From positions 1 through 32,320 of IMG/VR virus record IMGVR_UViG_3300049216_000116: a stretch of DNA of 32,320 nt. One strand, 5' to 3'. The stretch is from a virus. Positions 1,923 through 29,638 of this stretch are shown one piece after another. The translations under genes were made by a program, and so were the position numbers. Below the pieces are notes generated by a model. It was not told where the DNA came from. It saw only the letters and a program-made list of their open reading frames with translations, and searched no databases. Position 1 is the stretch's first letter. Every line of letters starts with the position of its first letter.

Positions 1923-2177
1923 ATGACCCTTCGCCCGACCGTCGAGGGACTCGTGCACGACCTCACCGACGTCTTCGCCGAGAACGCGCCCAACATCGCT
2001 TGGCAGCACGCCAGCGCCTTCGGCGACGAAGCCGAGGCGCTTTACTGCGAGGCCGCGCGTCTGCGGGCGCTAGCGCTCGCTCAGCAGATGCGGGCGGACC
2101 TCGCGCGCGAGACGGCCGAACTCTACGCCGAGGCCGCGCGGCAGCTCGAGGCCCGCCCGGTGGCGCGCGCGCGATGA
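1923..2177 (+). CDS. Small Ala-rich helical protein (84 aa)
   Basis: Start taken at ATG 1923, which overlaps the stop of the 11-codon ORF MNAALAKWGAV; an in-frame ATG at 1911 would add MGCG. The protein is almost entirely helical and rich in Ala, Glu and Arg, with GLVHDLTDVFAENAPNIAW near the N-terminus followed by long Ala-rich helices (EAARLRALALAQQMRADL). No Cys or metal motif except one isolated Cys. Its stop overlaps the ATG of the sulfotransferase gene, so the two are probably co-translated. No function is recognised. Confidence 0.65.
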   Translation: MTLRPTVEGLVHDLTDVFAENAPNIAWQHASAFGDEAEALYCEAARLRALALAQQMRADLARETAELYAEAARQLEARPVARAR

Positions 2178-3412
2178 CCCTCGACACCGACGCGCTCAGC
2201 GTTCCTCGGGCGTTGCAGCGCGCCGGCCGCTGGGAGGAGGCGCTCGCGTGGTATGACGCGGCGGCCGAGCGCGAGCGATTCGCCACGTGGCCGCGCCTCG
2301 AGGCCGGCCACGCGTTGCGGACGCTCGGGCGGACGGAGGAGGCGATCGAGTGCTTCCGGCACGCGCTCGCGCTCCGCCCCCACTCGGGCGCCGCCTGGTG
2401 GGCGCTCGCGAACTTGAAAACCTACCGCCTGACCGCCCGTGACGCCGATACCCTGGCCGATGCCGTCGCCGACCCGCGCGAGTCGCCGGGGTCCCAGGCC
2501 CTCGCGTGGTTTGCGCTTGGGAAGTACCATGAGGATGCGCGCGAGTGGAACCTAAGCGCCCGCGCCTATTCGGCCGCGAATGCGCTCTATGCCAATCGGC
2601 TACCCTGGGAGCCCGACGCGCACAGCGCGGAAGTCGCGCGCGCGCGCGAGACCTACACCCGCGCGTGGTTTGAGGCCCGCTCGGCTGCATTCGGGGACCC
2701 GTCCCCGGCGCCGATCTTCATTCTCGGGCTACCGCGCTCCGGCTCGACCCTCCTCGAGCAGATGTTGGGATCGCACAGCGCGATCGAGGCGACCATCGAG
2801 CACCCCGACTTATGGACGATCGGGCGGCGCCTGACCACCCAGCACCCGCAGGTCGTAAGCGAACTCGAGCCCGACGACGCGCGCGCGCTCGGCGGGCATT
2901 ACCTGCGCCAGATCGCCCCGCACCGGCGCACCGACAAGCCCTATTTCATCGACAAGCTGCCCGACAACTGGCTCTATGTCGCCTTGATTCACGTCCTGCT
3001 GCCGAACGCGCGGATCATCGACATGCGCCGCGAGCGCCGGGCGGCCGGGTTTGCCAACTGGAAGCAGTGCTTCGGCCACCGCGGCTATCGCTGGACCTAC
3101 GAGCAGCTCGCGCTCGGGCGGTACGTGCGCGACTACGAGACCCTGATGGCGCATTTCGATCAGGTGGCGCCGTGGCGCGTCACGAAGATGAGCTACGAGC
3201 GCCTGGTGGCGCAGCCGGAACTTGAGCTCCGGGCGCTCTGCGCCGAGCTCGGGCTGCCCTTTGAGGCGCGCATGCTCGAATACTGGCGCCTTGAGCGCCC
3301 GATGCGTACCGCGAGCAGCGAGCAGGTCAAGCGGCCGATTTACACCGACGCGCTCGAGGTGTGGCGGCATTACGCGCCGTCGCTTCAAGTGCTGCTCGGG
3401 GTGCTCGAGTGA
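2174..3412 (+). CDS. TPR-repeat sulfotransferase
   Basis: 412 residues. Residues 8-82 form tetratricopeptide-like helices (RAGRWEEALAWYDAA; LGRTEEAIECFRHALALRP). Residues 180-410 match the PAPS-dependent sulfotransferase fold common in bacterial TPR-sulfotransferases: IFILGLPRSGSTLLEQML (about 182-199) is the 5'-phosphosulfate loop; YFIDKLPDNWLYVALI and LPNARIID follow; DMRRERRAAGFANWKQCF takes the place of the 3'-phosphate motif; VTKMSYERLV and a C-terminal SSEQVKRPIY..W..Y complete the family pattern. The domain looks full length. One oddity is that the usual Cys-Leu-Ser of the 3'-phosphate motif reads Gly-Phe-Ala here. Transfer of sulfate to a host glycan, peptide or small molecule is inferred; the substrate is unknown. 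It sits between small coupled early genes, so this is probably a phage accessory gene. Confidence 0.85.
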   Translation: MTLDTDALSVPRALQRAGRWEEALAWYDAAAERERFATWPRLEAGHALRTLGRTEEAIECFRHALALRPHSGAAWWALANLKTYRLTARDADTLADAVADPRESPGSQALAWFALGKYHEDAREWNLSARAYSAANALYANRLPWEPDAHSAEVARARETYTRAWFEARSAAFGDPSPAPIFILGLPRSGSTLLEQMLGSHSAIEATIEHPDLWTIGRRLTTQHPQVVSELEPDDARALGGHYLRQIAPHRRTDKPYFIDKLPDNWLYVALIHVLLPNARIIDMRRERRAAGFANWKQCFGHRGYRWTYEQLALGRYVRDYETLMAHFDQVAPWRVTKMSYERLVAQPELELRALCAELGLPFEARMLEYWRLERPMRTASSEQVKRPIYTDALEVWRHYAPSLQVLLGVLE

Positions 3413-4434: not shown

Positions 4435-4470
4435 GCGATGACGCGGGCTAAGACTCAGCAAAAGGAGAAA

Positions 4471-5202
4471 ATGACCATGCTAACTATGGAACAACGTCAA
4501 CAGATCACTGACACGCTTGCGCGCATGCATCTGCCGTCCGGGCTCGGCACACCCGAAAACGCATGTTCGATCGCGGCGATCAATCTTGCGCTCACCGGTA
4601 AACTCACAGACAGCATTCCAGCGTGCATGTCCGAGGTCGTCGGGAACTGCATCATCGTGATGCAAGATTCTATGCCTGACGCATTGCGCAATTCGACTCG
4701 CTGGAAAAGCCTACTGCCGCTCGCGGCCGGCACGGGACGCAGTCATGAGCCAGAACGGCTGCAAATTCTGATGGATCACATGTGGACGGTGGCGCTGCCG
4801 ATAGTGCAACCGCTCGCGGATGCGCACGGCTTTGGCGGTGCGTGGCGGGAAATGATCGTTGAGCGCAGCGCGGAATTAGCGTGGAGCGCGGCGTGGAGCG
4901 CGGCGAGGAGCGCGGCGAGGAGCGCGGCGTGGAGCGCGGAGAGCGCGGCGAGGAGCGCGGCGTGGAGCGCGGAGAGCGCGGAGAGGAGCGCGGCGGAGAG
5001 CGCGGAGAGCGCGGCGAGCGCGGCGGAGAGCGCGGCGAGGAGCGCGGCGTGGAGCGCGGCGAGCGCGGAGAGCGCGGCGAGGAGCGCGGCGTGGAGCGCG
5101 GCGAGCGCGGAGAGCGCGGAGAGCGCGGAGAGCGCGGCGTGGGACATTCTGGACCCCTGCGGTCTGCTGGAGCGGCTGATTGCGGTCACGGAGGCGCAAT
5201 GA
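4471..5202 (+). CDS. Phage protein with Ser-Ala-x repeat domain
   Basis: Up to 243 residues. AAAGGAG at 4461-4467 favours ATG 4471 or, with better spacing, ATG 4477. An upstream in-frame ATG at 4438 lacks a ribosome site. Residues 1-135 form a conserved-looking domain (LPSGLGTPENACSIAAINL; TRWKSLLPLAAGTGR) that I recall from many uncharacterised phage proteins. Residues about 137-224 consist only of Ser, Ala, Trp, Arg and Glu in Ser-Ala-Ala/Glu/Trp steps. A short leucine-rich end (DPCGLLERLIAV) closes the protein. The same layout, with a different N-domain, occurs in the gene at 6143. Function unknown; the repeat may be a helical rod or solenoid. Confidence 0.75.
   Translation: MTMLTMEQRQQITDTLARMHLPSGLGTPENACSIAAINLALTGKLTDSIPACMSEVVGNCIIVMQDSMPDALRNSTRWKSLLPLAAGTGRSHEPERLQILMDHMWTVALPIVQPLADAHGFGGAWREMIVERSAELAWSAAWSAARSAARSAAWSAESAARSAAWSAESAERSAAESAESAASAAESAARSAAWSAASAESAARSAAWSAASAESAESAESAAWDILDPCGLLERLIAVTEAQ
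4879..5141 (+). repeat. Ser-Ala-x coding repeat tract, copy 1
   Basis: About 260 bases made of AGCGCG-based units; T appears only within TGG. In the coding frame only five codons are used: AGC, GCG, TGG, AGG and GAG. All three forward frames stay open. Near-identical DNA recurs at 6572-6840, so unequal recombination within or between the tracts is likely, and assembly length here is uncertain. Confidence 0.9.
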
Positions 5203-5842: not shown

Positions 5843-6141
5843 CCGACAAAGACAATGAACTGGTCCGACGGCTGCGAGGCGAATGGATCGACGGCTCCGA
5901 TTGGCGCGCTTTTCAACCCAGTACTTTTCCTCTGGGAGCACAAGCCGCCGACGAGATCGAGCGGCTGCTCGCCGATAACGAGCGGCTGCGGGATGCGCTG
6001 GCAATCATAGATAGCGGTGCAAGGCGGTATTGGCGCGAGGGCGAGGATGCGTATCAGTTCGCCATTATCGCCCGCGCCGCACTGGAGGGCGATCGCATTG
6101 CGAAGCTGGTCGAATTCCTCAACCCCAACAAGGACCCCTGA
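5839..6141 (+). CDS. Small helical phage protein (100 aa)
   Basis: GTG at 5839 overlapping the preceding stop, with GGGAAGGTGAG upstream. It opens with TDKDNELVRRLRGEW, followed by a Trp/Phe segment and the heptad-like helix AADEIERLLADNERLRDAL, a pattern I recognise from many small uncharacterised phage proteins. The C-terminal part is helical (FAIIARAALEGDRIAKLVEF). A dimeric coiled coil is likely. No catalytic or ligand motif. It ends one base before the next gene's leader, with its TGA at 6139-6141. Confidence 0.7.
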   Translation: MTDKDNELVRRLRGEWIDGSDWRAFQPSTFPLGAQAADEIERLLADNERLRDALAIIDSGARRYWREGEDAYQFAIIARAALEGDRIAKLVEFLNPNKDP

Positions 6142-6142
6142 C

Positions 6143-6892
6143 ATGCCCGCATTTCACAATGACGCCGCCATCAAAAATACCTACGTCGCCCGCATCCAGT
6201 CACACGCCGACGCGGACGAGATCATCCACGGAAAATACTGGGAGAATGGCAAGGGCTGCGCGATCGGCTGCCTGATTCACGGGTCCGACCACGCCAAGCT
6301 AGCGGACGTGCTCGGCGTGCCGCTCGCAATTTGCCGATTGGTCGATCAGCTGTTCGAGGGGCTGCCCAACGAGAAGAGCAAGCGATTCGCAGTCGAATGG
6401 CTCAGCGTAATTCCCGTGGGCGTGGATTTGTCGAGGGTGCAGTGGAAATTCCTGCACTGGCTGCTGACGGAAGAACTGGCCGGGCGGGAGCACCCGCTCA
6501 TGCGCGATGTCGTGCGGCAATGCGCGGACGTGCTGGTGCCGCTGACGAAGGGGGAGCTTGTAGATATCCAAGCGGCGGCGAGCGCGGCGAGGAGCGCGGC
6601 GTGGAGCGCGGCGAGCGCGAGGAGCGCGGCGTGGAGCGCGGCGAGCGCGAGGAGCGCGGCGGCGAGCGCGGCGGAGAGCGCGGCGGCGAGCGCGGCGGCG
6701 AGCGCGGCGGAGAGCGCGGCGTGGAGCGCGAGGAGCGCGGCGTGGAGCGCGGCGAGGAGCGCGGCGAGGAGCGCGGCGTGGAGCGCGGCGAGCGCGGCGA
6801 GCGCGGAGAGCGCGGAGAGCGCGGAGAGCGCGGCGAGCGCTATCTACACCCGCATGGCCGACCAGCTTGTCAAACTACTGGCGGCGGCCTGA
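6143..6892 (+). CDS. Second phage protein with Ser-Ala-x repeat domain
   Basis: 249 residues, ATG at 6143. Residues 1-140 form a folded-looking domain with KYWENGKGCAIGCLIHGSDH (about 31-50), LFEGLPNEKSKRFAVEWL and VQWKFLHWLL, a set I recall from uncharacterised phage proteins; it is unlike the N-domain of the gene at 4471. Residues about 144-233 consist of Ser-Ala-x repeats with the same restricted codons as that gene. A short leucine-containing helix (MADQLVKLLAAA) ends it. The shared repeat with a different head domain suggests domain exchange. It ends three bases before the stop of a converging minus-strand gene. Confidence 0.75.
   Translation: MPAFHNDAAIKNTYVARIQSHADADEIIHGKYWENGKGCAIGCLIHGSDHAKLADVLGVPLAICRLVDQLFEGLPNEKSKRFAVEWLSVIPVGVDLSRVQWKFLHWLLTEELAGREHPLMRDVVRQCADVLVPLTKGELVDIQAAASAARSAAWSAASARSAAWSAASARSAAASAAESAAASAAASAAESAAWSARSAAWSAARSAARSAAWSAASAASAESAESAESAASAIYTRMADQLVKLLAAA
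6572..6840 (+). repeat. Ser-Ala-x coding repeat tract, copy 2
   Basis: About 270 bases of AGCGCG-based units, with the same five-codon vocabulary as 4879-5141 and again nearly without T except in TGG. It is open in all forward frames. The long blocks of shared sequence make it a substrate for homologous recombination with copy 1, which would delete or invert nothing essential except the genes between 5142 and 6571. Confidence 0.9.
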
Positions 6893-8240: not shown

Positions 8241-9197
8241 ATGGGCAAGCTGATCCTTCCGAAGTCGGTCGACGACTGGCGCGCGCTGCGTCACCGCTAT
8301 GTCTCAAGCACCGAATCCGCGGCGCTCTTTGGGTATTCCGCGTACTCCACCCCGTTCCAGCTCGCGGTCGAGAAGCAGGCCCCCGAGCCGCCCGCGTGGG
8401 CGGGCAACGAGCGCGCGACCTGGGGGCTGCGGCTGCAGGAGGCGATCGCCAAGGGCATCTCAGCCGACTACGGCGTGAAAGTACGGCGGGTCAACAGCTT
8501 CGCCGCCGTGGACGAGGTACGCATGGGGGCGAGTTTCGATTACGAGGTGGTCGGCCACCGCGACGACTCCGAGGCGCCGGCCGGGCCGCTGCTGCGCGAC
8601 ATGTATTCGGACCTGGGCGCCGGGATTCTCGAAATCAAGACCGTTGACCGGCTCATTTACCGTGACCAGTGGCGCCACGAGGAGGGCGACGAGGCGCCGG
8701 TGCACATCGAGCTCCAGGTGCAGCAGCAGCTCGACTGCATCGACCGCCCGTGGAGCGCGATCGGCGTGCTGATTGGCGGCAACGAGATCAAAGTCATGAT
8801 CCGCGAGGTAGACCGCGAGGTGTGCTACGCGATTCGCGCCAAGGTCGCCGAATTCTGGGCCACCCTCGAGCGCGGCGAGATGCCGCCGGTCACCTTGCCG
8901 CAGGACGTCGACCTGATCCGGCGCCTGTATCTCAACAGCGACCCCGCGGGCGTGTTTCAGTCCGAGGACCCCGAGGTGGTCAAGCTCTGCCAGGCGTATG
9001 TCGACGCCAAGGCGCAGCGCGACTACCACGAGGACCTTCGCAAGACCTACGGTGCGCGGCTCCTCACCGTGCTCGGCGACGCCGCGAAAGGGGCGGTGCC
9101 CGGGTTCACCATCCAGGCGAACACGGTCAAGGAGACGCTGGTGCCGGCGACCGTGCGCAAGCCGTACCGCAACCTCATCGTTCGGGAGAAGAAATGA
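8241..9197 (+). CDS. YqaJ-type recombination exonuclease
   Basis: 318 residues, about the usual size for the YqaJ/lambda-exo-like family. YVSSTESAALFGYSAYSTPF (about 20-39) is the N-terminal Gly/Ser-Ser-Glu motif; LQEAIAKG holds the next conserved Glu; ASFDYEV (Asp about 100) and ILEIKTVD (Glu131-x-Lys133) give the PD-(D/E)XK catalytic residues; HIELQVQQQLDC carries the conserved Gln. The enzyme degrades one strand of double-stranded DNA ends to expose ssDNA for annealing. It overlaps the RecT gene by ATGA, the standard two-gene arrangement. ATG 8241 has only a weak Shine-Dalgarno. Confidence 0.9.
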   Translation: MGKLILPKSVDDWRALRHRYVSSTESAALFGYSAYSTPFQLAVEKQAPEPPAWAGNERATWGLRLQEAIAKGISADYGVKVRRVNSFAAVDEVRMGASFDYEVVGHRDDSEAPAGPLLRDMYSDLGAGILEIKTVDRLIYRDQWRHEEGDEAPVHIELQVQQQLDCIDRPWSAIGVLIGGNEIKVMIREVDREVCYAIRAKVAEFWATLERGEMPPVTLPQDVDLIRRLYLNSDPAGVFQSEDPEVVKLCQAYVDAKAQRDYHEDLRKTYGARLLTVLGDAAKGAVPGFTIQANTVKETLVPATVRKPYRNLIVREKK

Positions 9198-10117
9198 ACA
9201 CGGCCGTGAAACCGACGGAACTGCAAATCGTCAAGGACACCGTGCAAGCGCCCGCGTTTCAGGAGTCGGTGCGCCGGCTGCTGCCGAAGCCGGCGCTGAT
9301 TGCCCGTTTCAACGACGTGGTGCTGACCGCGATCGAGAGCGACCCCGGTCTCCTGAAAGCCGATCGCAACAGCCTGTTCCGGGCCTGCCTGCAGGCGGCG
9401 AAGCGCGGGTTGCTGCCGGACAAGCAGGAAGGCGCGTTCGTGACGTTCCGCTTCAACCGCGCGAGCCGGGGGCAACCGGACGACTGGGTGAACCTGGTGC
9501 AGTTCCTGCCGATGGTGCAGGGCATCATCAAGGAAATGGGCGCGGCCGGGTTTCCCGCGTATGTCAATTCGGTCTACGAGCACGACACGGTCGAACTCTG
9601 GAGCGACGACACGGGGCAACACGTCCGGCACACCTCGGCGATCTTCAAGGGCCGGGGCCAGCTGCTCGGCGTTTACGCGGTGGCGTCGTCCGGCGGGCGC
9701 ACCTGGGTCGAGGCGATGAACCTCGAGGACGTGGACCGGATCGCCGCGAAGTCGAAGCAGAAGGACAAGGACGGCAATCTCACCGGGCCGTGGAAAAGCG
9801 ACTGGGACCGGATGGCGCAGAAGTCGGTGCTGCATCGCCTGCGGCGGCGCTTGCCGATCGCTCAGCCCGATCCCGGCGACGACCCCGACACCGCGGCGCT
9901 CGAGGGCGTCGACCCGACCACGGGCGAGCTGCTCGCGGCGCCACCGGCCGCCGAGCCTGCGGCGCTTGAGCACGACACCACCCCCTCGATGTTCGAGACC
10001 GGGCCTAAAGCGCCGCAGGAGGCCCAGCAAGCCCTTTCGCCGCGGGCCGGGGCTCGGCCGCGGGGGTTGCAGAAAGTGCTTGAGCAGGCCGCTCCGGAGC
10101 CGCCGGACGGTGCCTGA
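9194..10117 (+). CDS. recT: RecT-family ssDNA-annealing protein
   Basis: 307 residues. The core (about 20-235) has the RecT pattern: LTAIESDPGLL..RNSLFRACLQAAKRGLLPD near the N-terminus, then VNLVQFLPMVQGIIKEM, YAVASSGGRTWVEAMNLEDV, WKSDWDRMAQKSVLHRLRR. It binds ssDNA and pairs complementary strands with the partner exonuclease encoded just upstream. Residues after about 240 form an acidic, Pro/Ala-rich tail that is longer than the core needs and probably disordered; such tails often bind SSB or other partners. Overlaps the J-domain gene by 8 bases. Confidence 0.9.
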   Translation: MNTAVKPTELQIVKDTVQAPAFQESVRRLLPKPALIARFNDVVLTAIESDPGLLKADRNSLFRACLQAAKRGLLPDKQEGAFVTFRFNRASRGQPDDWVNLVQFLPMVQGIIKEMGAAGFPAYVNSVYEHDTVELWSDDTGQHVRHTSAIFKGRGQLLGVYAVASSGGRTWVEAMNLEDVDRIAAKSKQKDKDGNLTGPWKSDWDRMAQKSVLHRLRRRLPIAQPDPGDDPDTAALEGVDPTTGELLAAPPAAEPAALEHDTTPSMFETGPKAPQEAQQALSPRAGARPRGLQKVLEQAAPEPPDGA

Positions 10118-10733
10118 GCAGGACCCGTGGGACGTGCTCGGGGTGCCGAAGGGGGCGGACGCCGCGACGCTCAAGCGCGCCAAGCGGGCGAGACAGCGGG
10201 CGCTGCACCCGGATCGGGTGGGGGGCGACGGCGCCGCGATGGCGGCCGTCAACCAGGCCTACGACATCCTGACCGACCCGGCGCGGCTCCTGCGCTACGA
10301 GCGCGAGGGCCACGACGTTCCGCATGTGCCGCCGGCCGAGCAGGCCGCCCGTCAGGTCATTCTGGTTGCGGTGCAGCAGATTCTGTCGCGTCCGGAGCTC
10401 CCGCGCGGCGGGATTCTGCGCGAGGTGCACACGGCGCTTGTGCGCGAGCGCGGGGTGGTCGCCCAGGCGGCGCCGGCCATTCAGGGGATGCTCGCCGCGG
10501 CGCGTCGGGCGCAGAAGCGGCTCAAGTTCAAGGGCGAATCGCCTGAGAAGGATTTCCTCGCCGGGCTCTTTGACGAGCGCATTCAGGGCCTTGAGCGTCT
10601 GCTCGAGCAGCAGGGCGTCGACTTGGTGAAGCTCAACCGGGCGCTCGAGCTCCTGCGCGATTACGAGGAAACGACGGACCCGGCGGACGGCGCCGACGCA
10701 ATTCAATGGAAATTCCTGGAGGTTCCCCGATGA
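10110..10733 (+). CDS. J-domain (DnaJ-like) protein
   Basis: 207 residues from GTG 10110, overlapping the RecT end. Residues 5-65 form a J-domain: DPWDVLGVPKGADAATLKRA, a basic helix II, LHPDRVGGD with the essential His-Pro-Asp at about 33-35, and VNQAYDILTDPARLLRYE. J-domains stimulate the ATPase of DnaK. The remaining 140 residues are helical and lack the Gly/Phe and zinc domains of DnaJ, so the target-binding part is phage specific. Its place directly after RecT suggests recruitment of host DnaK for replication or recombination complexes, as known for phages that use DnaJ/DnaK; here that is inference. Confidence 0.85.
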   Translation: MPEQDPWDVLGVPKGADAATLKRAKRARQRALHPDRVGGDGAAMAAVNQAYDILTDPARLLRYEREGHDVPHVPPAEQAARQVILVAVQQILSRPELPRGGILREVHTALVRERGVVAQAAPAIQGMLAAARRAQKRLKFKGESPEKDFLAGLFDERIQGLERLLEQQGVDLVKLNRALELLRDYEETTDPADGADAIQWKFLEVPR

Positions 10734-11086
10734 GCGAATCCGTGCCGCCGAATGAACCCGTGTTGCTCGCCTCCGAAGCGCTTGCGAAGAAGTGCGCCGG
10801 CGAGGCGCTTGATTCTGCGGTGCAGGCGCAAGTCGAATGCCTGCGCGTCGCGGGCGGGCAGGTGGACGCCGGAAACCTCGTGGTGCGGCTCATGGTGCAG
10901 GAGATTCACCTGAACGCGCTGCAGGACCTGATGCTCTTGCCGGCGCCCGAAGGGGAGACCCGAAGCCTTGCCGAGCGGTTTTTCGCCGACATCGAGAAGA
11001 AGTCGCACCAGTTCGAAGGTCAGATGCGGCGGGCGCTGCTCGCGAGCGGGGCGACGGTGCGGGACATTATTCGCAAGCCGAGTTAG
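10730..11086 (+). CDS. Small helical protein ending the recombination operon
   Basis: 118 residues; ATG 10730 overlaps the J-domain stop (ATGA). An in-frame ATG 24 bases upstream is possible, but the overlap favours 10730. The sequence is helical throughout: EALAKKCAGEALDSAVQAQV, VVRLMVQEIHLNALQDLMLL, LAERFFADIEKKSHQFEGQM, with two cysteines and no catalytic motif. Its stop overlaps that of the converging minus-strand gene by four bases. Function unknown; it may bind the recombination proteins, given the tight coupling. Confidence 0.65.
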   Translation: MSESVPPNEPVLLASEALAKKCAGEALDSAVQAQVECLRVAGGQVDAGNLVVRLMVQEIHLNALQDLMLLPAPEGETRSLAERFFADIEKKSHQFEGQMRRALLASGATVRDIIRKPS

Positions 11087-12354
11087 TTGCTACGCAGGGC
11101 CAGCGTGCCCGCTTTAATCAGCGTAGGGCCGAGCAGCTTGTTGGAATTGAGCGGCACGCGCGTTGACTTGTACGGGCGATAAAGCGGATCGCCGAGTACC
11201 GTCAGGTGCCCTGAGTAGACGGCTTGCACCGCGCCGTCGAGCGGAGACGCTTGGGCGACCAAGTGCATCACGCTGCCCATCGCGCAAGTCTGGCTGAGCA
11301 GTGCTTGGGCCATCTGCAGGGGATCGTAGAGCCCGTTGGCGTTCGGTTCGTTCATCGTCGAAAAACACGCGGAAGCGCCGTTGTATAGCATGTCGTAGGC
11401 CCAATTGTAGTTATAACTCGTCCACACGTACCCCCAAGCGCCGGGAGACACGCTGTAGTTAAGCGAATAAGGTTCGAGTCCAGGGCCGTAGCTGTAGCTG
11501 TTGAAATCGTTGTCGCCGAGACAGAAGGCAAAAGCCGGTACGAGGGTCGTTACGGTCTGGGTAGGGACTCCAGGAGTAAAGCTTGACGGGATGAATCCGT
11601 TGGTGCCGCTGTAAGCGACGTTCGCGGCGGTTCCGGTGACCCCGCCGAGGTCGACCGTATTGATGTTCTGCCCGGACCAGTAGCTCAAAATCGAGGCATT
11701 GTAGGCGGCGGTAATGTGGCCAGCGTACTGTTCGACCGACGTGCCCCAGTGATTGAGCGTGGCATTGTTCGCCGCTTCGGCCACCACCGCGTTGGTCACG
11801 CATTGATAGACCATGCTCGAGACGCTAACGGCGGCACCGCCCACCGGGTAAGTCGTGGCTTGGGTCGCCCCCGATAGACCCTTGGGTATTAGCTCCGCGC
11901 TGGCACCCGGGCAGCCCAAGCGTCCATTGGGAATCGGGAGCGTGGCTTGAGAGAGGTCAATCCCGATGTATCCGGGAAGTGTCGTCCCTTGGCCGGTTGA
12001 GTCCGCAAACAGCTGCACTGGGGTGAACGTGCTGCACACGACGGCATCTATGGTCGGCTGCGCGGCGTACAGGGCGGTCAGCGCGGCGTGGGGCGACTGG
12101 CCGGTGTAGGTCGAGGTGACATTGGTCCCGCCGTAGTACGCGGCGCCACAGGGCCATACGACAGGTCCGGTGGCGGCGTAATACGAAAAGTTTGTCTCTC
12201 CGTAACCTTGATAGGTCGTGCCAAAGGCAAACCCGATCAGGTTGTAGTTCGTATTGCCGAAGCGTTTTTGCCAGTACCACTGGGCGTCGGTGAGCGATTG
12301 AGCGACCGACGAGTTATAGACGATCAACGGATTGACCGGGATCGTGAAGCTCAT
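11083..12354 (-). CDS. TIGR03790-like (caspase/gingipain-fold type) protein in the tail module
   Basis: 423 residues from ATG 12354, which overlaps the fibre stop; a GTG at 12372 is less likely. The N-terminal LIVYNSSVAQSLTDAQWYWQ (about 10-29) and NYNLIGF resemble the opening of TIGR03790 proteins. The C-terminal third follows their pattern: VSPGAWGYVWTSY, then YNGASACFSTMNEP (about 324-337), an ALLSQTCAMGSVMHL helix, and HLTVLGDPLYRPY (about 383-395). This ending is shared with gingipain-like peptidase relatives. I do not identify the catalytic His-Cys pair; several Cys and His are available. As last gene of the late block, immediately after a fibre, it could be a virion-associated or secreted factor. 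GC is lower than in the head genes, a sign of transfer. Confidence 0.5.
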   Translation of the reverse strand: MSFTIPVNPLIVYNSSVAQSLTDAQWYWQKRFGNTNYNLIGFAFGTTYQGYGETNFSYYAATGPVVWPCGAAYYGGTNVTSTYTGQSPHAALTALYAAQPTIDAVVCSTFTPVQLFADSTGQGTTLPGYIGIDLSQATLPIPNGRLGCPGASAELIPKGLSGATQATTYPVGGAAVSVSSMVYQCVTNAVVAEAANNATLNHWGTSVEQYAGHITAAYNASILSYWSGQNINTVDLGGVTGTAANVAYSGTNGFIPSSFTPGVPTQTVTTLVPAFAFCLGDNDFNSYSYGPGLEPYSLNYSVSPGAWGYVWTSYNYNWAYDMLYNGASACFSTMNEPNANGLYDPLQMAQALLSQTCAMGSVMHLVAQASPLDGAVQAVYSGHLTVLGDPLYRPYKSTRVPLNSNKLLGPTLIKAGTLALRSN

Positions 12355-13808
12355 CAGTAGCGTCGCATCCACTTGCCCAAGGTGGTTGAAAACTTCCAGC
12401 CGAATCCGGAGTTAGCGGCGGCGGTCGTCGGGGCGCCGAGGACATTGGCCGCTGTGCCGGAGCCGTCCTGCAGGGTCAAAGCGGTGATGGCGAAGTTCAC
12501 GACGGATAGATCAAACCACTGGCCGTCAATGGGTGAAGGGGGGAGCTTGATCGTCATGGTCGCGACGGTGCCGGCAGGTACAAACACGAGAGAACTGGTC
12601 GCTTGGGGGACGGTGATCGGGCTCGTGGACGACGTGACGTAATCGTAGCCTTGATCGGCGAAGGCGCCTTGGGCTCCCGTTGCTTCGGCATAGCCTAAGA
12701 GGACATCTCCGTAGGCATCAATTGTGATGCCTCCCAGTGGTCCCCAAAATTGAATTTGGCCATTGAGTGCATTGGTTGATCCTTGTGCAGCAGTAAAATT
12801 AATGCTTCCAGCCGCATTCGCGCTATTTGGAGAACTTCCACCAGTAAAACTGATTCCACCTCCGGTTCCGCCTACACCAGTTGCAGACCCTGCAGTAAAC
12901 GCGATCGAACCTGCTTGGGCCGTCGTTGTGCTTCCACCCGTGACAAAAATACCTCCATTAGCAGTGGCCCCGCTATTCGCAGTGGACAATTCTAAAAACG
13001 CAGTTCCGGTAGCCTGTATGTTGAAATTGAAACTCGAGGTGATTGCGGGTGCAGTTCCCGCAAAACTGAGCACGCCGGTCGTTGCATTAAACTCAAGGTT
13101 CGCGCTCCCCCCAAACGCGCCGCCGTTGTTGTATTGAACTGCGGTAGAAGGACCTGCAGGCGTTCCTCCTCCCCCGCTGCCCGCGACGCCGTTCCAGTTG
13201 GTCGCAGTCGTGTCAATCGTGATTGTGCCCGTGGTGCTTAGGTAGTAGTTATACCCAGCGTGGGCGGTTCCTTGCAGAATGAATTCTGAAACGCCGGCGT
13301 AAGCCTGCGAGGTGGAGCCGGAGGAATACCAGGTGGGCCGGGTCCAGGCGCCAGAGTTGATATTCCAGGGGCCGTTCTGAGACCCCGTAGCCTGAGCCGT
13401 GAGCAGCACCACCTGCCCGGCGGCGAGCGTCACACCATCAATCGCCGTGGTTCCCGCCGTGCCGCCCAGGGAAATCGTGGTGCCCGAAGGCGGGAACGTG
13501 CCGCCCGTGTTGTTGAGCACCGCCGCCGTCGCGACCATCGTGGCAGCCGGCTTGACGGCGGCCATTCCAAGGAGCTGGCCGATTTGCAGCTGATCGGTCT
13601 GGGCGTTGGCGACCGACTCGACCGGCAGGACGTCGGTCTGCAACAGCGAAAGGGCGTACGTCGTGGGCAGCGAGGCAATCGGCGTAGAATTGGTTTCAAG
13701 ATCAACCGTACTGCCCGACACGTTGACCGAAATAGTGCCGCCGGTCGAGGTGATCGTGGAGATGCCGCCGCCGCCGCCGGAGCCGCCGGCCACGCCCCGC
13801 ACGGACAC
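12354..13808 (-). CDS. Tail fibre or receptor-binding protein
   Basis: 484 residues from GTG 13808. The N-terminus has a Gly run (GGSGGGGG), then Ser/Thr-rich beta structure. Residues about 91-160 carry a common phage fibre module (GVTLAAGQVVLLTAQATG, NGPWNINSGAWTRPTW). AVQYNNGGAFGG begins a second common fibre motif at about 223. The C-terminal half is Gly/Ser/Thr/Ala repeat-like beta-helix sequence, ending in a compact WKFSTTLGKWMRRY. The stretch 12700-13100 is clearly lower in GC than its surroundings, which suggests acquisition of the distal part by recombination. Likely binds the host surface. Confidence 0.75.
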   Translation of the reverse strand: MSVRGVAGGSGGGGGISTITSTGGTISVNVSGSTVDLETNSTPIASLPTTYALSLLQTDVLPVESVANAQTDQLQIGQLLGMAAVKPAATMVATAAVLNNTGGTFPPSGTTISLGGTAGTTAIDGVTLAAGQVVLLTAQATGSQNGPWNINSGAWTRPTWYSSGSTSQAYAGVSEFILQGTAHAGYNYYLSTTGTITIDTTATNWNGVAGSGGGGTPAGPSTAVQYNNGGAFGGSANLEFNATTGVLSFAGTAPAITSSFNFNIQATGTAFLELSTANSGATANGGIFVTGGSTTTAQAGSIAFTAGSATGVGGTGGGISFTGGSSPNSANAAGSINFTAAQGSTNALNGQIQFWGPLGGITIDAYGDVLLGYAEATGAQGAFADQGYDYVTSSTSPITVPQATSSLVFVPAGTVATMTIKLPPSPIDGQWFDLSVVNFAITALTLQDGSGTAANVLGAPTTAAANSGFGWKFSTTLGKWMRRY

Positions 13809-13809
13809 G

Positions 13810-14202
13810 TTACGCCCCTTCGCCGAAGGTGAGGGTGAACCCCTGCGAGGAGCCCGCGGAGATCGAATTCACCCACAGGCCCCCGAGCCCCGCCGACGCA
13901 TTCGGGAAGAACGTGATCGTGTACACCTCGACGATCAGCGGGTAGATCGGGATGACCGCCTGCGGCGTGCCCGGGGTCGTCGTGCCCTGCGTGGGAACGA
14001 CGGCGGTCGCGGACGCGGGGGTGAACGAAAGCCAGATGAGCGAGGTGCCGAGATTCAGAATCCGCACGTTCCGGGGCGACGGACCGCCGCCGGCACCGAA
14101 TACGTCGTTCGTCGTGATCGGGCAGGAGAGCGAGGTGCTCGCCGTGCCGTTGGTGGCGAGGTAGACCGTGTTGCCGGTGACCCGCAGTGGAGAGAGGATC
14201 AT
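13810..14202 (-). CDS. Small beta-rich tail-associated protein (130 aa)
   Basis: ATG 14202 with GGAGG upstream. The protein is made of alternating hydrophobic strands (NTVYLATNGTASTSLSCP; NVRILNLGTSLIWLSF; YPLIVEVYTITFFPNASAG), like a single jelly-roll or Ig-type domain. One Cys, no catalytic motif. It ends one base before the fibre's GTG, so it is probably a fibre-base or capsid/tail decoration component. No named family is recognised. Confidence 0.65.
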   Translation of the reverse strand: MILSPLRVTGNTVYLATNGTASTSLSCPITTNDVFGAGGGPSPRNVRILNLGTSLIWLSFTPASATAVVPTQGTTTPGTPQAVIPIYPLIVEVYTITFFPNASAGLGGLWVNSISAGSSQGFTLTFGEGA

Positions 14203-14674: not shown

Positions 14675-14861
14675 CGTTGTCGCCTCCAAAAGCCGCCCCG
14701 AATTCGCCCTCATCCATCTTCATTTCGATGGCCTCGAGCTTCGCGTAACTGTTCACGAGCTTGGTAATCTCCTCGACGACTTCGGTGCGGTCGATCGCGG
14801 CCACGATTTTCTTCTTCACGCGCGCGAGCGTCTGCTTGCGATCCTTGTCCGGGTTCTTCAT
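14667..14861 (-). CDS. Small charged helical protein (64 aa)
   Basis: ATG 14861 overlaps the stop of the polyvalent protein gene. The protein has a Lys-rich start (MKNPDKDRKQTLARVKKK), a helix VEEITKLVNSYAKLEAIEM and an acidic tail (DEGEFGAAFGGDNDE). No domain known. The strict ATGA coupling on both sides supports it as a real gene. Role unknown. Confidence 0.6.
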   Translation of the reverse strand: MKNPDKDRKQTLARVKKKIVAAIDRTEVVEEITKLVNSYAKLEAIEMKMDEGEFGAAFGGDNDE

Positions 14862-17800
14862 CGCAGGCCCTCCTGCTCCTCGCGCAGCTTCCGCTTGTGC
14901 GCGAGCCGATCCTCGAGCCGCGGCGGCCGGGGCGTGCCGTCGGAGGTGATCGCCCGCGGCGCGCGCACCACGCCGGCGAACTGCGCCCACTTCGGAATCT
15001 TCGAGTCGGGCGGCGCTTTCTGGACGTTGCGGATCGGAAACGGAATCCACTGCTCGGCGAAATACTTCGCGACATCCTTCTGCCGCTCAAGCCACGGGTC
15101 CTGCGGGTCGTAGATTTCCGCGCCGTAGTAGTCGCGGTTACGCGAGAGGTCGTAGGCAAACGACACCCACGGCGCTAGCTTGTTGGTGACGGTCGTGGTC
15201 GGATCGGTCGCGTACTCCACCACGTCTTTCGCATAGGTCGGCAGCGACAGGCGCTCGGGCGTCCCGTCGGGATTGGTGCCGCCAGTCTGCGGAAAGAAGT
15301 AGTCAATCGGCTGCTCGGGCTTCTTGCCGGTCATGAGGTACCCCGTCACCGCGCCGAGCACCGCGGCGGTCGACGAAAACCCCGCCGTGTATGCCATGCG
15401 GTGCGTCATTTCTGGATTGCCGCCCTGCAGGAACTCGTTGGTCGCGTTCACCCAGTCCCACGCACCGCCGCCGAGTTCGCGCACCGTACCCAAGTTCCAA
15501 CCGACCGAACGGATGGCAATGTGCGAGGCATCGCGCAAGGTCTTGTTCCAAAAGAGGTTGTCGTAGTTGAGCTCGCCCATGCGGTTGTCGACTGAATCCC
15601 AGGCCTTCTGCATGCGCTCGACGAGCTCGTGCACCGGCATGTTGGGCTTGGCGCGCAGCTCGTGCGCGGCCATGTCGGCGAACACGCCGAGCTTCTGGCG
15701 CGGGACGATGTACTCCATGAGCCACGCGGAGGAGGATTGCACCGCCCGGCCGGCGGTGCGCGCGATGCCTGCAAACACTTCGGGTCCCGCACCGGCGCGC
15801 TCACTCTCGAAGTTGCGCGCAAGGTCGTTCCACAAATGCTTGAGCGCGCCGCCGCGGGTGCCGGCGCTCTCGGACCCCCAGAGCGACTTGATCGCCCGGG
15901 AGGCAGCCGGGACGTAGCTGCCGGCACCCGTCACGCCGTAGTACCGCGGCATGGCGACGCGGCCGCCCGCGAGCTCGAACGCCTGGACGATCTTCTGCAG
16001 CTCGGGGCTCGCGTTGCCCGGGTTCAAGATCGCGTCCCGCAGTTTCGCGCCGCGGAGGAGCGTCGTGGCGGGGGCTGCGGGCGCGCTCAGGAACTTCGAC
16101 GCCGCGCCTTTCAGGTTGCCCTTGGAGGCCTCTTTCACCGCCAACGCGACATGCGAGCTCATGGCGTCGATCGCGGTCATGCCGGCGTGGAAGGCGGACA
16201 TCGACAGCTGCACCATGTTCATCGCGGTGGCCGTCGAGCGCGCGTAATCGAGCGCCCCGCCGAGCGCGCCGCGCAGCGCCGAGCGCGAGAGGTGATTGTT
16301 GAGCACGCGGGCCGTGTTCTCAGGCGCCGCGTAAGCGCCCGTTTTCATGTAGCCCAGGGGCTTACGCGGCCCCTCGTAACTCCCGCCGTGCTCCCAAGGC
16401 GGTTCCTCGGCGCCCGCGGGGGGTTTGACCGCGCGCTGCGGCCCCGCGGCCTGGCGGTCGAGCACTTCGGTGCTCGCGTCGATCGCCTGCTCAAGCAACC
16501 GGGCCTCGTTCGGGTCCTTCACCCCGAAGATGTTCTTCACCAGGTCCTTGAGGCGCTGCAGGATATTGCCCGGCTGCCCGCCGCGCTTGCCCTCGAGGCC
16601 CGCGAGGTATTCCTGAAACTTCGGGTTGGATAACGCTTCGGCGATGAATTCGACGGCATCGTTGGCGTGGTTCGGTTGCAGGCCGTACCACTGGTGCATG
16701 TCGTTGCCCGCGAGGGTGCGCGCTTCTTGGAGCAAAGCGTCGAGCTTCTGCGCCGTCGGATGCGCGCGGTTGGCGCGATACCAGTCCACGGTGCCCGCGT
16801 GCACCGTCTCATGCAGGAGGGTGTGCGTGAGGTTCGGGTTGTTCGATCGAATACCGATCTGATGCGCGGACCGCGAGTACACCCCGAGAATGCCGGATTC
16901 GCCGTCAATCTTCTCCTGCACGTGCACCGCAATGTTTCCGACCGCGCCACGGAGCCGCATGGCGAGCGTTTTCACGTGCGGGTCTCGGGTCGCGCCGAGG
17001 AGGTCATCGAGGGCGTCGTGCAAGCGCAGCGGCGTCTTGCTCGCTTTGGCCTGCTCCATCTTCTTCTCAAGCGCGCCGAGCTGCTGATTGGTGTCCTCCA
17101 TGCCGGCCATGACGCCCGAATTCTTCTCGAGCTTGCCGACCATCGGCGTCACCTGGTCCTGGTAGACCATGCGCCAGGTCTCAAACGCCGGATCGTCGAT
17201 GAACTTCCAGCCATCCGGCAAATCGTCGCCCTGTTTGAAATGCTTGACGAGCCCGGATTTTTTCAGCGTTTCCGAGAGCTTGACCCCGCGGTAGTAGCGG
17301 TTCATTTCCGAGAGCTTGAGGAGCGAAAGGTCGATCGGGTTGGTCGTGATCGGCTCGTACCCCGCCGCGATGCCCTCGGCCGTGGTCGGGAACACGCGCT
17401 GCTTTTTGAACCCCTGCGAGCCTTTCAGCGGCCGCTTGCCCTGGGTCTGGCGGATGTTGACGTCGGACGACTCTTTCCAGTAGTGCGGGAAGTAGTTCTG
17501 CCGGTAGGCGGCTTGGTGATCGGGGCCGAGGTTGGCGACTTTCTGCCAGCCCTCATCGAGTTTCTCGCGCAGCATCTTCGCGATGTCATCGAGGTACGGG
17601 TGCGCCTGCGACTCGCCGGTTTCCATCTTGTGGATGAACTCGAGCTGCTCCTCCTTGCCCATCTTGTCGGTGACCTGGCGCGCGCTCTCGAGGTACGCCT
17701 CGTCGCGGGCGATGTCCGCCTGCAGATGCCCGTTCGACGCGCGCGTGATGCGACCGACCGCCGCGGCGCCCGCGTCGACGCCCGCGGGGTCGAGGTGCTT

Positions 17801-18465
17801 TTGAATTTCCTCGATCACCTTCATGTTCGGCAAGCCGGTCACCGCGCGGTCGATGGTGTTGAGCGCCATCTTCGCGACCTGCCCTTCGCCTGCGAACGGG
17901 ATCGCGGCCTGCACAAGCTCGTTCACCGAATCGGGCGAGGTGAGCGGGCGCGCGGGCTCGCCCGTGACCGGGTTCGTGGTGCCGTTGACCGCTTCGTCGG
18001 CCTTGTTGAGGAGCATCGACACGGGTTTCCCGATGACTTCCTTCGTCGCCTGGGTGAACGGCTCGAAGGCCATGCCGGCGGCGTCCACCCCGGCGAGCAG
18101 CGCATTGCCGAGGGCCGGGATGCCCGCCTGCACTTCGTCGACGCGCTGCCACTGGCGTTTGAGGCCTTGCCAGCCTTGCTTTTCCGCTTCTCCGAGGTCG
18201 TTCAAATACTCCCCGAGCACGGGGATTTTCGAGGTGACGCTGGACACCGCCGCATCCGCCGCGTCGTAGGCCGAGAGGGCCATCTGCCCGAACGTCGGTT
18301 GGGTGGTGCGCGACGCGGCTTGCCCCGCGGGCTTGCGGTCGACGACGGTCCACTCGCCGCCTGGGGCGGCCGCTGGGGCCGGCGCGGGCGCCGCCGAGGG
18401 GTCGGGGGCGGGGGGGGGGGGGGGCGCCCCGCGCGGCTGACGACGGCCCAGGGGTCGTCGGCCAT
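14858..18465 (-). CDS. Large polyvalent-type internal virion protein with zinc-peptidase motif (frame broken at a G tract)
   Basis: About 1200 residues. ATG 18465 opens MADDPWAVVSRAGRP but runs out of frame at a 15-base tract (18410-18424); one further base in that tract joins it to the frame that reads EWTVVDRKPAGQ and continues to the TGA at 14858. A peptidase-like segment has THTLLHETVHAG (HExxH at 16799-16813, about residue 552) and, some 45-50 residues on, AVEFIAEALSNPKFQEYL, supplying a Glu that could be the third zinc ligand. Long helical regions, an amphipathic DUF-like C-terminal part and a late hydrophobic stretch (FSSTAAVLGAVTGYLMTG) follow. This fits the virion-packaged polyvalent proteins injected with the genome. 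Neighbours are internal virion proteins. Confidence 0.7.
18410..18424. repeat. G15 homopolymer inside the polyvalent gene
   Basis: Fifteen consecutive Gs (proline codons on the minus strand). The natural ATG frame and the long downstream frame differ by exactly one base across it. Sixteen or thirteen Gs would restore one frame. It is either a homopolymer sequencing error or a slippage tract. Confidence 0.9.
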
Positions 18466-19709
18466 TACTGCACCGACACCTGGACCGGCTGACCGTTCTG
18501 CAACGTCCAGCTGGTGCCGTTGGCGAAGCGGGCGACTTCACCCTCTTTCAACGCATTGATGGGCGGCGTGTTCGCGGCCGGGGTCGGCGCGGCCCCCTGC
18601 GGCCGGGTCAGCGTGTCGACGCCACCGGCGGCGACAGCCTCGATCTGGTCCGCGATCTGCGTCATGCGCCCCTGCAGGTCCGCGATCTTGGCGTCAAAGT
18701 TGGCGATCGTCGGGCCTTTGTCGCCCTTCACGCTGAGGTCCGAGCGGAACTGCCCCTCCGCTTTCTGAATCTGCGCGATCTGGGCCTTGTAGTTGTCCCA
18801 CTGCGCTTTGAGGCCCTGCATCCTCTGTTTCTGCTGCGGCGAGCCGTTCTGCTGTACCTGGCGGGCTTTCTCCTCGAGGCGCCCTTCCCGCATCTGGAAC
18901 TCCTGCCACTGCTGGTGGAGCTGCTGCAGTTTGAGATTCTGCGTCTCGAGCTTCTCGCGCGCGCTCTCCATCGTCTTGAAGGCGTCGAGCGATTGCATGA
19001 TCTTCTGCTTCTTCTGGTCGAGGTCGTCACCCGCCATACGCCGGGCCGCCGCGGCGGCCTTCTGGTAGGCATCGGCGCGACCGGCATAGGCCTCCTGCAT
19101 GAGCTTGTTGTAGTTCATGATTTCGTTGAGCTTTTGCTTCATCTGCTCATTGGCGGCCTGGTACTTCTTCCATTGCTCCTCGACCGTCGAGGCGGCGCCG
19201 GCGTTCATGCCCTTCACGAACCCGGTCAGCGCGCCGAGCATCATGCCGCCGGTGAGCCCCATGGAGCGGCCACCGAGCGCCATCAGGGTCGCGATCGGCG
19301 CCGCGGCGTGCATGGACTGCTGGTAGATCGCGGCCTGGTCGGGCACCGCGGCGGCGGTCTGCTGGGCGCTGGTTTCGGCGTCCTGCAGCTGCTTCGCCGC
19401 GGCCTCGGCCTGGTCGGCCGCCTTGAGGTCGTACTCGCTCGCGCGCGCCTGGGCGTCGCGCGCCGCCTTGCGGTCCGCCTCGTACTCGGCATCCTCCTTT
19501 GAGGTGTCGGGCGGGGTCCAGGTCGCGTACGGGCTCGGCGCGGGCGGTGCCGGGGGCGCAAGGGCGGGCGGCGTCGGCGCGCTGGAATCGGGCGTCGCGG
19601 CGGGCGCCGGCGGCGCGGCGGGGGTGACTGCCGCCGGATCCACCGGGCCGCCGAGGCCGCCGTCAACGGCGCTCGGGTCGCTCAAATCAGGGAAAGAACT
19701 CGCGGTCAT
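18465..19709 (-). CDS. Coiled-coil internal virion protein (414 aa)
   Basis: ATG 19709 overlaps the preceding stop; its TAA shares a base with the ATG of the polyvalent gene. Residues 1-65 are Pro/Ala-rich and disordered. Residues 70-115 and about 175-330 are strongly charged helices of coiled-coil type (KYQAANEQMKQKLNEIMNYN; QQLHQQWQEF; QKQRMQGLKAQWDNYKAQIA). A Gly/Met-rich hydrophobic segment (ATLMALGGRSMGLTGGMMLG, about 139-158) may contact membrane. The C-terminus ends in a small strand-rich WTLQNGQPVQV. The pattern fits ejected internal proteins; no enzyme motif is visible. Confidence 0.65.
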   Translation of the reverse strand: MTASSFPDLSDPSAVDGGLGGPVDPAAVTPAAPPAPAATPDSSAPTPPALAPPAPPAPSPYATWTPPDTSKEDAEYEADRKAARDAQARASEYDLKAADQAEAAAKQLQDAETSAQQTAAAVPDQAAIYQQSMHAAAPIATLMALGGRSMGLTGGMMLGALTGFVKGMNAGAASTVEEQWKKYQAANEQMKQKLNEIMNYNKLMQEAYAGRADAYQKAAAAARRMAGDDLDQKKQKIMQSLDAFKTMESAREKLETQNLKLQQLHQQWQEFQMREGRLEEKARQVQQNGSPQQKQRMQGLKAQWDNYKAQIAQIQKAEGQFRSDLSVKGDKGPTIANFDAKIADLQGRMTQIADQIEAVAAGGVDTLTRPQGAAPTPAANTPPINALKEGEVARFANGTSWTLQNGQPVQVSVQ

Positions 19710-28594: not shown

Positions 28595-29638
28595 TTAGAT
28601 CGAGAGAACGGCCCAGCCGGGGAGCCGGGCCTGCGCCTTCGGTTTCACGCACACGAGCTGCAGCGCGTTGATCACGACGCCGACATAGCCCACCTGGAAG
28701 TTCGAGAGCGTCGACTCGAAGCCGGAGAAGTTGAACATCCCCTGCTCGTGGAAGTACGCATTGAAGTAGTTGGAATTGCACAAGTAAATCGTGCCGCCCG
28801 TCACCGAGCTGTTGACATCGTTGACCGGGCAATACGGGTCGGCGTAGATCGGCACGCCGGCGACATCGAGCGCTTTCAGCATCGAGCGCGGCCGGTTGGC
28901 CTCCGTGTCGAACGCGGCGCCGGGAGTGACGTAGTACGTCTCCTTGCCGAGGTAGTCCTGCGCGAGGTTCGCCCAGGTCCCGAAGTCGGTGACGCCGAAG
29001 GTCGGGTGTTCGCCCGAGTAGTTGTTGAGCCCGGCGATGTACTGCAGCAGGTTCGCGCGGGTCGGCGCGACGGTGCCGGAGCCGATGTTCTTGTAGTACG
29101 AGCTCCACCACGGGTTGCTCGCCCGGTTGATGTTGCCGTAGGTCGTGAGGTTGGTGCCGTTGTCGAACGCGCCGTCGAGGCCGGTGATCGCGTTGTTGGT
29201 GGTCGAGATGTTGGTGTACGCGGCCGACGCGATGAGGTCCATCGTGGTGTTGGTCGCGTCGTTCATGCGCGCCTGGATCAGCGGAATGACCGCGTGATCA
29301 AGCTGCACGAGGCCTTCCATGCCGAGGAAGGGGATCGGGGTGAGCGCGAGCGCGAGATTGAACTCGGCGTCGGTCACGCCGGTGAGCGGCTCGGGCTCGG
29401 GGAAGGTGCCGTCGTAACCCGCCCAGGCCGCCGCCGTCATCGGCGAGCCCTGTACGGGCACGGTCACCGAACTCGCACCACCGCCCGCGCTCTGCGCGTT
29501 CGCGAGCAGCGCGCCCAAGAGCGGGCTCGTGTTGTAGATCTGGACGTAGAGCTGCGGGATGAACGCACGGCGCGTGATCGCGGCGAGCTCCGCGTATTGC
29601 GCGCTCTGTGCCGGAAGTAAACCACCAGGTACGGGCAT
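28595..29638 (-). CDS. Major capsid protein
   Basis: 347 residues, ATG 29638, with AGGA upstream. It begins with AELAAITRRAFIPQLYVQIY and TSPLLGALLANAQSAGGGAS, a typical capsid N-terminal arm and first helix, followed by VTVPVQGSPMTAAAWAGYDG, the long spine helix region AVIPLIQARMNDATNTTMDL and a beta-rich C-terminal half (GVPIYADPYCPVNDVNSSV; FSGFESTLSNFQVGYVGVV). Size and gene order (after scaffold, before head-tail genes) support an HK97-fold capsid subunit. It should form the icosahedral shell with the scaffold encoded just upstream. Confidence 0.85.
   Translation of the reverse strand: MPVPGGLLPAQSAQYAELAAITRRAFIPQLYVQIYNTSPLLGALLANAQSAGGGASSVTVPVQGSPMTAAAWAGYDGTFPEPEPLTGVTDAEFNLALALTPIPFLGMEGLVQLDHAVIPLIQARMNDATNTTMDLIASAAYTNISTTNNAITGLDGAFDNGTNLTTYGNINRASNPWWSSYYKNIGSGTVAPTRANLLQYIAGLNNYSGEHPTFGVTDFGTWANLAQDYLGKETYYVTPGAAFDTEANRPRSMLKALDVAGVPIYADPYCPVNDVNSSVTGGTIYLCNSNYFNAYFHEQGMFNFSGFESTLSNFQVGYVGVVINALQLVCVKPKAQARLPGWAVLSI

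Follow-up and report, generated by a model that had tools for sequence, protein, structure and literature searches.

Profile searches and a tree show that P0001, the 423-residue product of the last gene in a phage late operon, belongs to the TIGR03790 superfamily, within a branch specific to phages. Its predicted structure is a two-part alpha/beta fold like that of the gingipains (clan CD), an assignment that is well supported by model comparison. The role that we favour, with somewhat better than even confidence, is that of a phage-specific clan CD-fold virion protein of the fibre/decoration cassette, which would act in binding or as a structural part and is probably non-proteolytic. Phage virion cassettes thereby gain a previously unrecognised protein family. 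To our knowledge, no gingipain-type fold had previously been linked to the structural modules of tailed phages.

The P0001 gene and its operon

The window, that is the whole stretch of 32,320 nucleotides that was analysed, is a 32-kb virus record (a fragment) from IMG/VR. The features referred to below are these:

11083..12354, minus strand: P0001, phage TIGR03790-like protein of predicted gingipain fold, 423 aa, ATG start, stop at 11083-11085; assigned from homology, fold and start/stop context
11170..11193, minus strand: C-terminal signature GDPLYRPY, residues 388-395
11416..11418, minus strand: codon of Ser313, invariant in 98/98 phage and bacterial proteins, at the putative position of the gingipain catalytic Cys
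12313..12315, minus strand: codon of the superfamily-invariant Asn14, which closes strand 1 (LIVYN) (11/11 phage and 57/57 bacterial proteins; 30/30 in the unbiased set)
12354..13808, minus strand: upstream virion/fibre-like gene, TGATG-coupled to P0001; matches PHROG virion structural protein (1e-11) and head decoration (3e-10)
13810..14202, minus strand: small protein without an assigned family, just upstream of the fibre-like gene
14858..18541, minus strand: large late-operon protein of 1227 aa, perhaps an internal or ejection protein, judging from its size and place
28595..29638, minus strand: major capsid protein (phrog_9953, 2.6e-27), in the same late operon as P0001

A preliminary description of this DNA had placed a reading frame at 11083-12354 and left its strand unstated. 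The frame is real and intact on the minus strand, and the plus frame across the same positions is riddled with stops. Two starts are possible, a GTG at 12372 that would give 429 aa and the better-placed ATG at 12354. The three peptides on which the description was built, SPGAWGYVWTS, NGASACFSTMNEP and GDPLYRPY, are all found in the translation. As it had also stated, the gene lies directly behind the fibre-like gene and is coupled to it: the fibre-like gene ends in TAC TGA and the ATG of P0001 lies within 'TACTGATGAGC', a one-base overlap of stop and start. A stretch of the fibre-like protein matches known phage virion and head-decoration proteins in PHROGs.

The late operon upstream of P0001 includes portal, capsid and tail genes together with the 1227-aa protein. 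P0001 is its final minus-strand gene, the stop overlapping a convergent plus-strand ORF (10706-11086) by 4 nt. To this extent the gene may be said to end the late transcript. Nevertheless, a scan near the stop detected no excess of terminators, so the transcript end is deduced from gene order.

Several plus-strand genes of the window were noted in passing. A YqaJ-type exonuclease, a RecT-like protein and a J-domain protein are predicted in a row at 8241-10733. At about 2170-3412, TPR-like repeats and a putative sulfotransferase-type PAPS motif (GLPRSGSTLLEQML) stand beside phage genes; a TPR/sulfotransferase-type protein is unusual phage cargo. Three ORFs (953-1357, 4438-5202 and 6017-6892) carry Ala-rich tandem repeats with units of 33 nt (AWAEYARATAP...) or of 33 and 24 nt (AWSAARSAAESA...), a repeat style that is common to these separate genes of one phage.

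Membership of the TIGR03790 superfamily

Used alone, P0001 had no match in NCBIfam, Pfam, PHROGs or PDB sequences, and scans for close relatives in viral and genome contigs were likewise without a match. The family was found by searching viral contigs with a degenerate DNA pattern that encodes the C-terminal GDPLYRP[FY]. The pattern gave nine loci, seven with full or partial homologues; the remaining two (L006 and L011) were rejected as chance matches. Together with later scans, this search placed the gene in 12 IMG/VR contigs besides the window. The closest homologue, on a 38-kb viral contig, is 32% identical to P0001 over its full length.

Three of the phage relatives match the TIGR03790 model at 9e-6, 2e-10 and 5e-13, with scores of 25-49 bits that are below the curated cut-off of 67 bits; P0001 does not reach the cut-off and gives no match to this model at all. 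The phage profile, in turn, matches bacterial TIGR03790 proteins down to 6e-27, and when genome contigs were scanned with the phage alignment, 287 bacterial relatives were identified. The best 80 of the 287 are nearly all from Verrucomicrobiota, Kiritimatiellae and Lentisphaerae. TIGR03790 is matched by 61 of the 68 aligned sequences, phages included (best 3e-102). Two-ended matches and the alignment indicate that the homology of P0001 to curated members spans its length.

Because selection by motif could bias the bacterial set, a control profile was built from 30 bacterial proteins chosen by the NCBIfam TIGR03790 model only, and the motif was masked in a further search. Against 1145 ORFs of the phage loci, the top matches of this profile were exactly the 12 phage rows, including P0001 at E = 4.4e-8; the weakest member scored 0.003 and the best non-member 0.12, so the likeness of P0001 to TIGR03790 is not due to chance. 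With GDPLYRP masked, eight members were retained at ≤0.001, while P0001 fell to E = 0.016 and its sister (L109, 250-1533) kept 6e-6. On the strength of these two results, membership is secure for the family as a whole and adequately supported for P0001 itself. The kinship to TIGR03790 that had been proposed from the C-terminal pattern is thus upheld by the profile of bacterial proteins, although the direct TIGR03790 and C25 models gave no match to P0001.

TIGR03790 is a little-studied bacterial family to which P0001 is distantly related. It shares with P0001 an xVxYNS strand with an invariant Asn, an S...Y...R helix, a GR(L/I) motif, a PGA strand, an invariant Ser, a GA...EP element and the GDPLYRP end, and these marks occur in the same order along the whole length. 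Lost in the phages are HxHS (with the Ser kept), RxD, VDSEL and the signal peptide. Hydrophobic leaders precede 44 of 57 bacterial members and one of 11 phage members, the latter an artefact of an over-extended start; in P0001 only eight residues, MSFTIPVN, precede strand 1. The suggestion of a secreted protein therefore finds no support, neither P0001 nor the phage members having a signal peptide. The absence of leaders from the phage sequences agrees with cytoplasmic assembly.

A maximum-likelihood tree was built from 98 proteins. All 11 phage sequences fall on one side of a branch (100/97), apart from the 87 bacterial ones. Branches among the phage sequences are long and their inner joins are unsure. 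This tree bears on the origin of the gene, for which acquisition had been proposed from its lower GC. The lower GC is real: 0.600 (GC3 0.75) compared with 0.655 for the window, and with a GC3 of 0.81-0.91 for the other late genes. As the fibre-like gene has a similarly low GC (0.602, GC3 0.66), however, the composition marks a two-gene cassette, not P0001 alone. A bacterial TIGR03790 gene captured recently, or a contig contaminated by host DNA, would agree with a GC below the window average, but is very improbable given the separate phage branch, the low GC common to the fibre-like gene, the phage genes that flank P0001, and its lack of the bacterial leader and motifs. Recent capture was rejected on the separate branch in the tree, which places the phage TIGR03790-like proteins as an old phage lineage.

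As judged from these searches, the family is so far known only from metagenomic phage contigs. The nearest deposited phages by capsid (MW202825 and MW202753) have no homologue, six family queries gave no tblastn match in 50,697 deposited phage records, and PHROGs has no family that corresponds to the phage proteins. In the open-access literature searched, TIGR03790 is nowhere mentioned by name, and the literature on gingipain/C25 or caspase-like phage virion proteins provided no obvious precedent. The statement that this is not a recorded gene of phage tail modules agrees with these results.

Predicted fold and positions of the gingipain catalytic residues

Prediction with AlphaFold2 from the single sequence of P0001 was useless (pLDDT 30). 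With an alignment of 68 sequences, the model had a pTM of 0.75 and a mean pLDDT of 64, with 60 residues at ≥90. Confidence is good for the core strands and helices but low for the middle loops; the poorly predicted parts are residues 50-69, 115-140, 230-241 and 248-293. Foldseek alone gave no significant match to the PDB (E of 0.14 or higher) or to BFVD, and the fold assignment is based on VIA-align comparison of Foldseek's candidates together with sequence homology. The top match was gingipain K (Z 18.6, 293 residues, 3.9 Å), followed by RgpB (gingipain R, Z 18.0) and two further gingipain entries. Separases (Z about 11) and the TPR-CHAT protein of Craspase (about 10) came next, and caspases scored 4-5. 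These share the clan CD core with the model, but their match is far weaker than that of the gingipains, and P0001 is without their dyad. The first row from outside clan CD was 8rw5 at Z 9.1, after which only separase and CHAT entries appeared until Z 4.8; most unrelated proteins scored lower than 4.8.

Sequence comparison with the C25 gingipains (PF01364, clan CD) gave a fainter signal. No PF01364 match was found for any of the 68 aligned sequences, and an HMM search with a purpose-built C25 profile gave weak E-values of 0.26 or higher. Nevertheless, hhalign comparison with a profile of 16 environmental C25 domains, although weak (E 0.03), was collinear over 284 columns and brought the GR and E marks and the terminal GDP into register. 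These results favour the caspase-fold, gingipain-like claim of the preliminary description. The model alternates alpha and beta elements along its length, so that the beta-helix or triple-stranded fibre fold, set beforehand as the outcome that would speak against the claim, did not occur and was rejected. It also differs from the beta-helix, trimeric coiled coil or beta-sandwich of fibre-associated phage proteins, although P0001 resembles spikes, decoration proteins and fibre caps in its genomic place and in being translationally coupled to fibre or decoration genes.

In C25 sequences the catalytic dyad pairs the His of GHG with a Cys that ends the following strand. The place of the His is occupied by GWY in the bacterial proteins and by G280 followed by D281 in P0001, with no His in the column. 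By the strand and elbow pattern, the place of the Cys corresponds to the Ser of bacterial HLHSFSA and thus to Ser313 of P0001 (VWTS); the weak hhalign alignment puts it three residues on, at Tyr316, which is also not Cys. The mapping of Ser313 to the Cys was derived from sequence pattern and alignment. No Cys is conserved in the phage rows. A His-Cys pair at the usual strand ends, which the caspase-type reading called for, was looked for in the alignment and not found: an invariant Ser stands at the putative Cys position and no His at the His position. As the gingipain dyad is missing, P0001 would not be a canonical cysteine peptidase, and that reading was rejected. On the alignment we infer that it is not a caspase- or gingipain-type cysteine protease; it also differs from C25 in having no export signal.

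Other polar residues divide the family. Glu336 is present in 96 of the 98 aligned phage and bacterial proteins and Arg145 is near-invariant, whereas H310 occurs in 86 of 87 bacterial sequences and in one of 11 phages. The phages have also lost H312 and D147, position 147 being Gly in all 11. Where bacteria have H-x-[HT]-S, P0001 has V-W-T-S, keeping the Ser and losing H310; S20, R31 and R145 are retained. The phage counterpart of TIGR03790 has lost most of the conserved polar residues. TIGR03790 itself gains a predicted fold, a phage counterpart for comparison and, in the invariant Ser/Glu pair, residues to test; together these make its function directly testable.

Place in other phages and proposed role

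Following the proposal that other phages be surveyed for the gene, homologues were located in phages that otherwise differ from one another. They lie in virion modules, and most have fibre, decoration or capsid genes as neighbours; overall they stand behind a capsid, connector, spike, fibre or decoration gene, or between two such genes. In four contigs (L015, L017, L021 and L026) the gene comes after a capsid gene and is followed at some distance by a connector or tail gene. In the 322-kb phage L016 it lies between two fibre/spike genes, one of which encodes a spike with a PA14 domain. Elsewhere it follows a 1171-aa protein and a tail fibre (L024, at whose other contig end it lies ahead of the terminase), a large tail protein and a fibre-connector-like protein (L028) or a tail fibre-related piece (L109). 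It is found between a virion protein and tail proteins in L013 and shortly ahead of a lysis-like gene in L023. Where starts are clear, they overlap or nearly touch the upstream gene; examples are the window, L015 and L109, with 1 nt, and L017, L164 and L167, with 8 nt. L016 and L017 have the genes on both sides of the TIGR03790-like gene in common, which indicates that the cassette is exchanged among phages that differ greatly in size.

This context in unrelated phages suggests that P0001 is incorporated into the virion. The missing dyad and the loss of most polar residues conserved in bacteria, in turn, point to a binding or structural role. P0001 would be made late and translated in tandem with the fibre-like protein, and then assembled into the virion within an exchangeable host-recognition/decoration cassette. 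Its folded clan CD body would be mounted on or beside the fibre or decoration protein, facing the host surface. The old catalytic cleft may be retained, either to bind a ligand or as a structural site built around Ser313 and Glu336.

A late-expressed moron outside the virion that acts within the cell, where it might for instance bind a caspase-like (CHAT-type) host defence protein or serve as its decoy, seems distinctly improbable. The end of the operon is a typical place for a moron, and the lower GC3, the lack of a signal peptide and the relation of the fold to TPR-CHAT of Craspase would all fit. In other phages, however, the gene is part of the structural module: it stands between fibres, or between the capsid and head-tail connector genes, with virion genes packed closely against it.

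Against a pure scaffold, the conservation of Ser313, Glu336 and Arg145 exceeds what such a function needs, and could reflect retained catalysis. P0001 might accordingly be pictured as a non-classical virion-borne hydrolase, with Ser313 in a nucleophile elbow and Glu336, Arg145 or the phage-specific His202 assisting, that cleaves a host surface or matrix polymer at adsorption. Ser313 stands at the putative place of the catalytic Cys, a His aligns with H202 in at least seven of the 11 phage rows, and the PA14-domain spike neighbours the gene in the 322-kb phage. Virion depolymerases are commonly found in such fibre/spike cassettes. Nevertheless, the canonical dyad is missing, 10 of the 11 phages have lost the His three residues before the Ser, Asp147 has become Gly, and Ser313 was placed on the Cys by sequence pattern only. 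We consider this hydrolase unlikely, though the most plausible of the alternatives. The wider proposition, that tailed phages bear a clan CD-fold hydrolase in which an invariant Ser replaces the Cys nucleophile and which is used on the host surface, is more doubtful still. We know of no description of this catalytic type for the clan CD fold. If a Ser hydrolase is indeed carried on the particles, the bacterial TIGR03790 family would share Ser-based chemistry.

Two further observations concern the contigs with homologues. Around the TIGR03790-like gene, L016 (3610-13248) and L017 (3258-6637) have several genes of fibre, spike and beta-sandwich-like types in common. L022 (220-1545) and L024 (6953-7576) are the two ends of IMGVR_UViG_3300037483_000078, and both carry the gene, with several amino-acid differences; this record was probably joined from strain variants, or else holds two copies of the gene.
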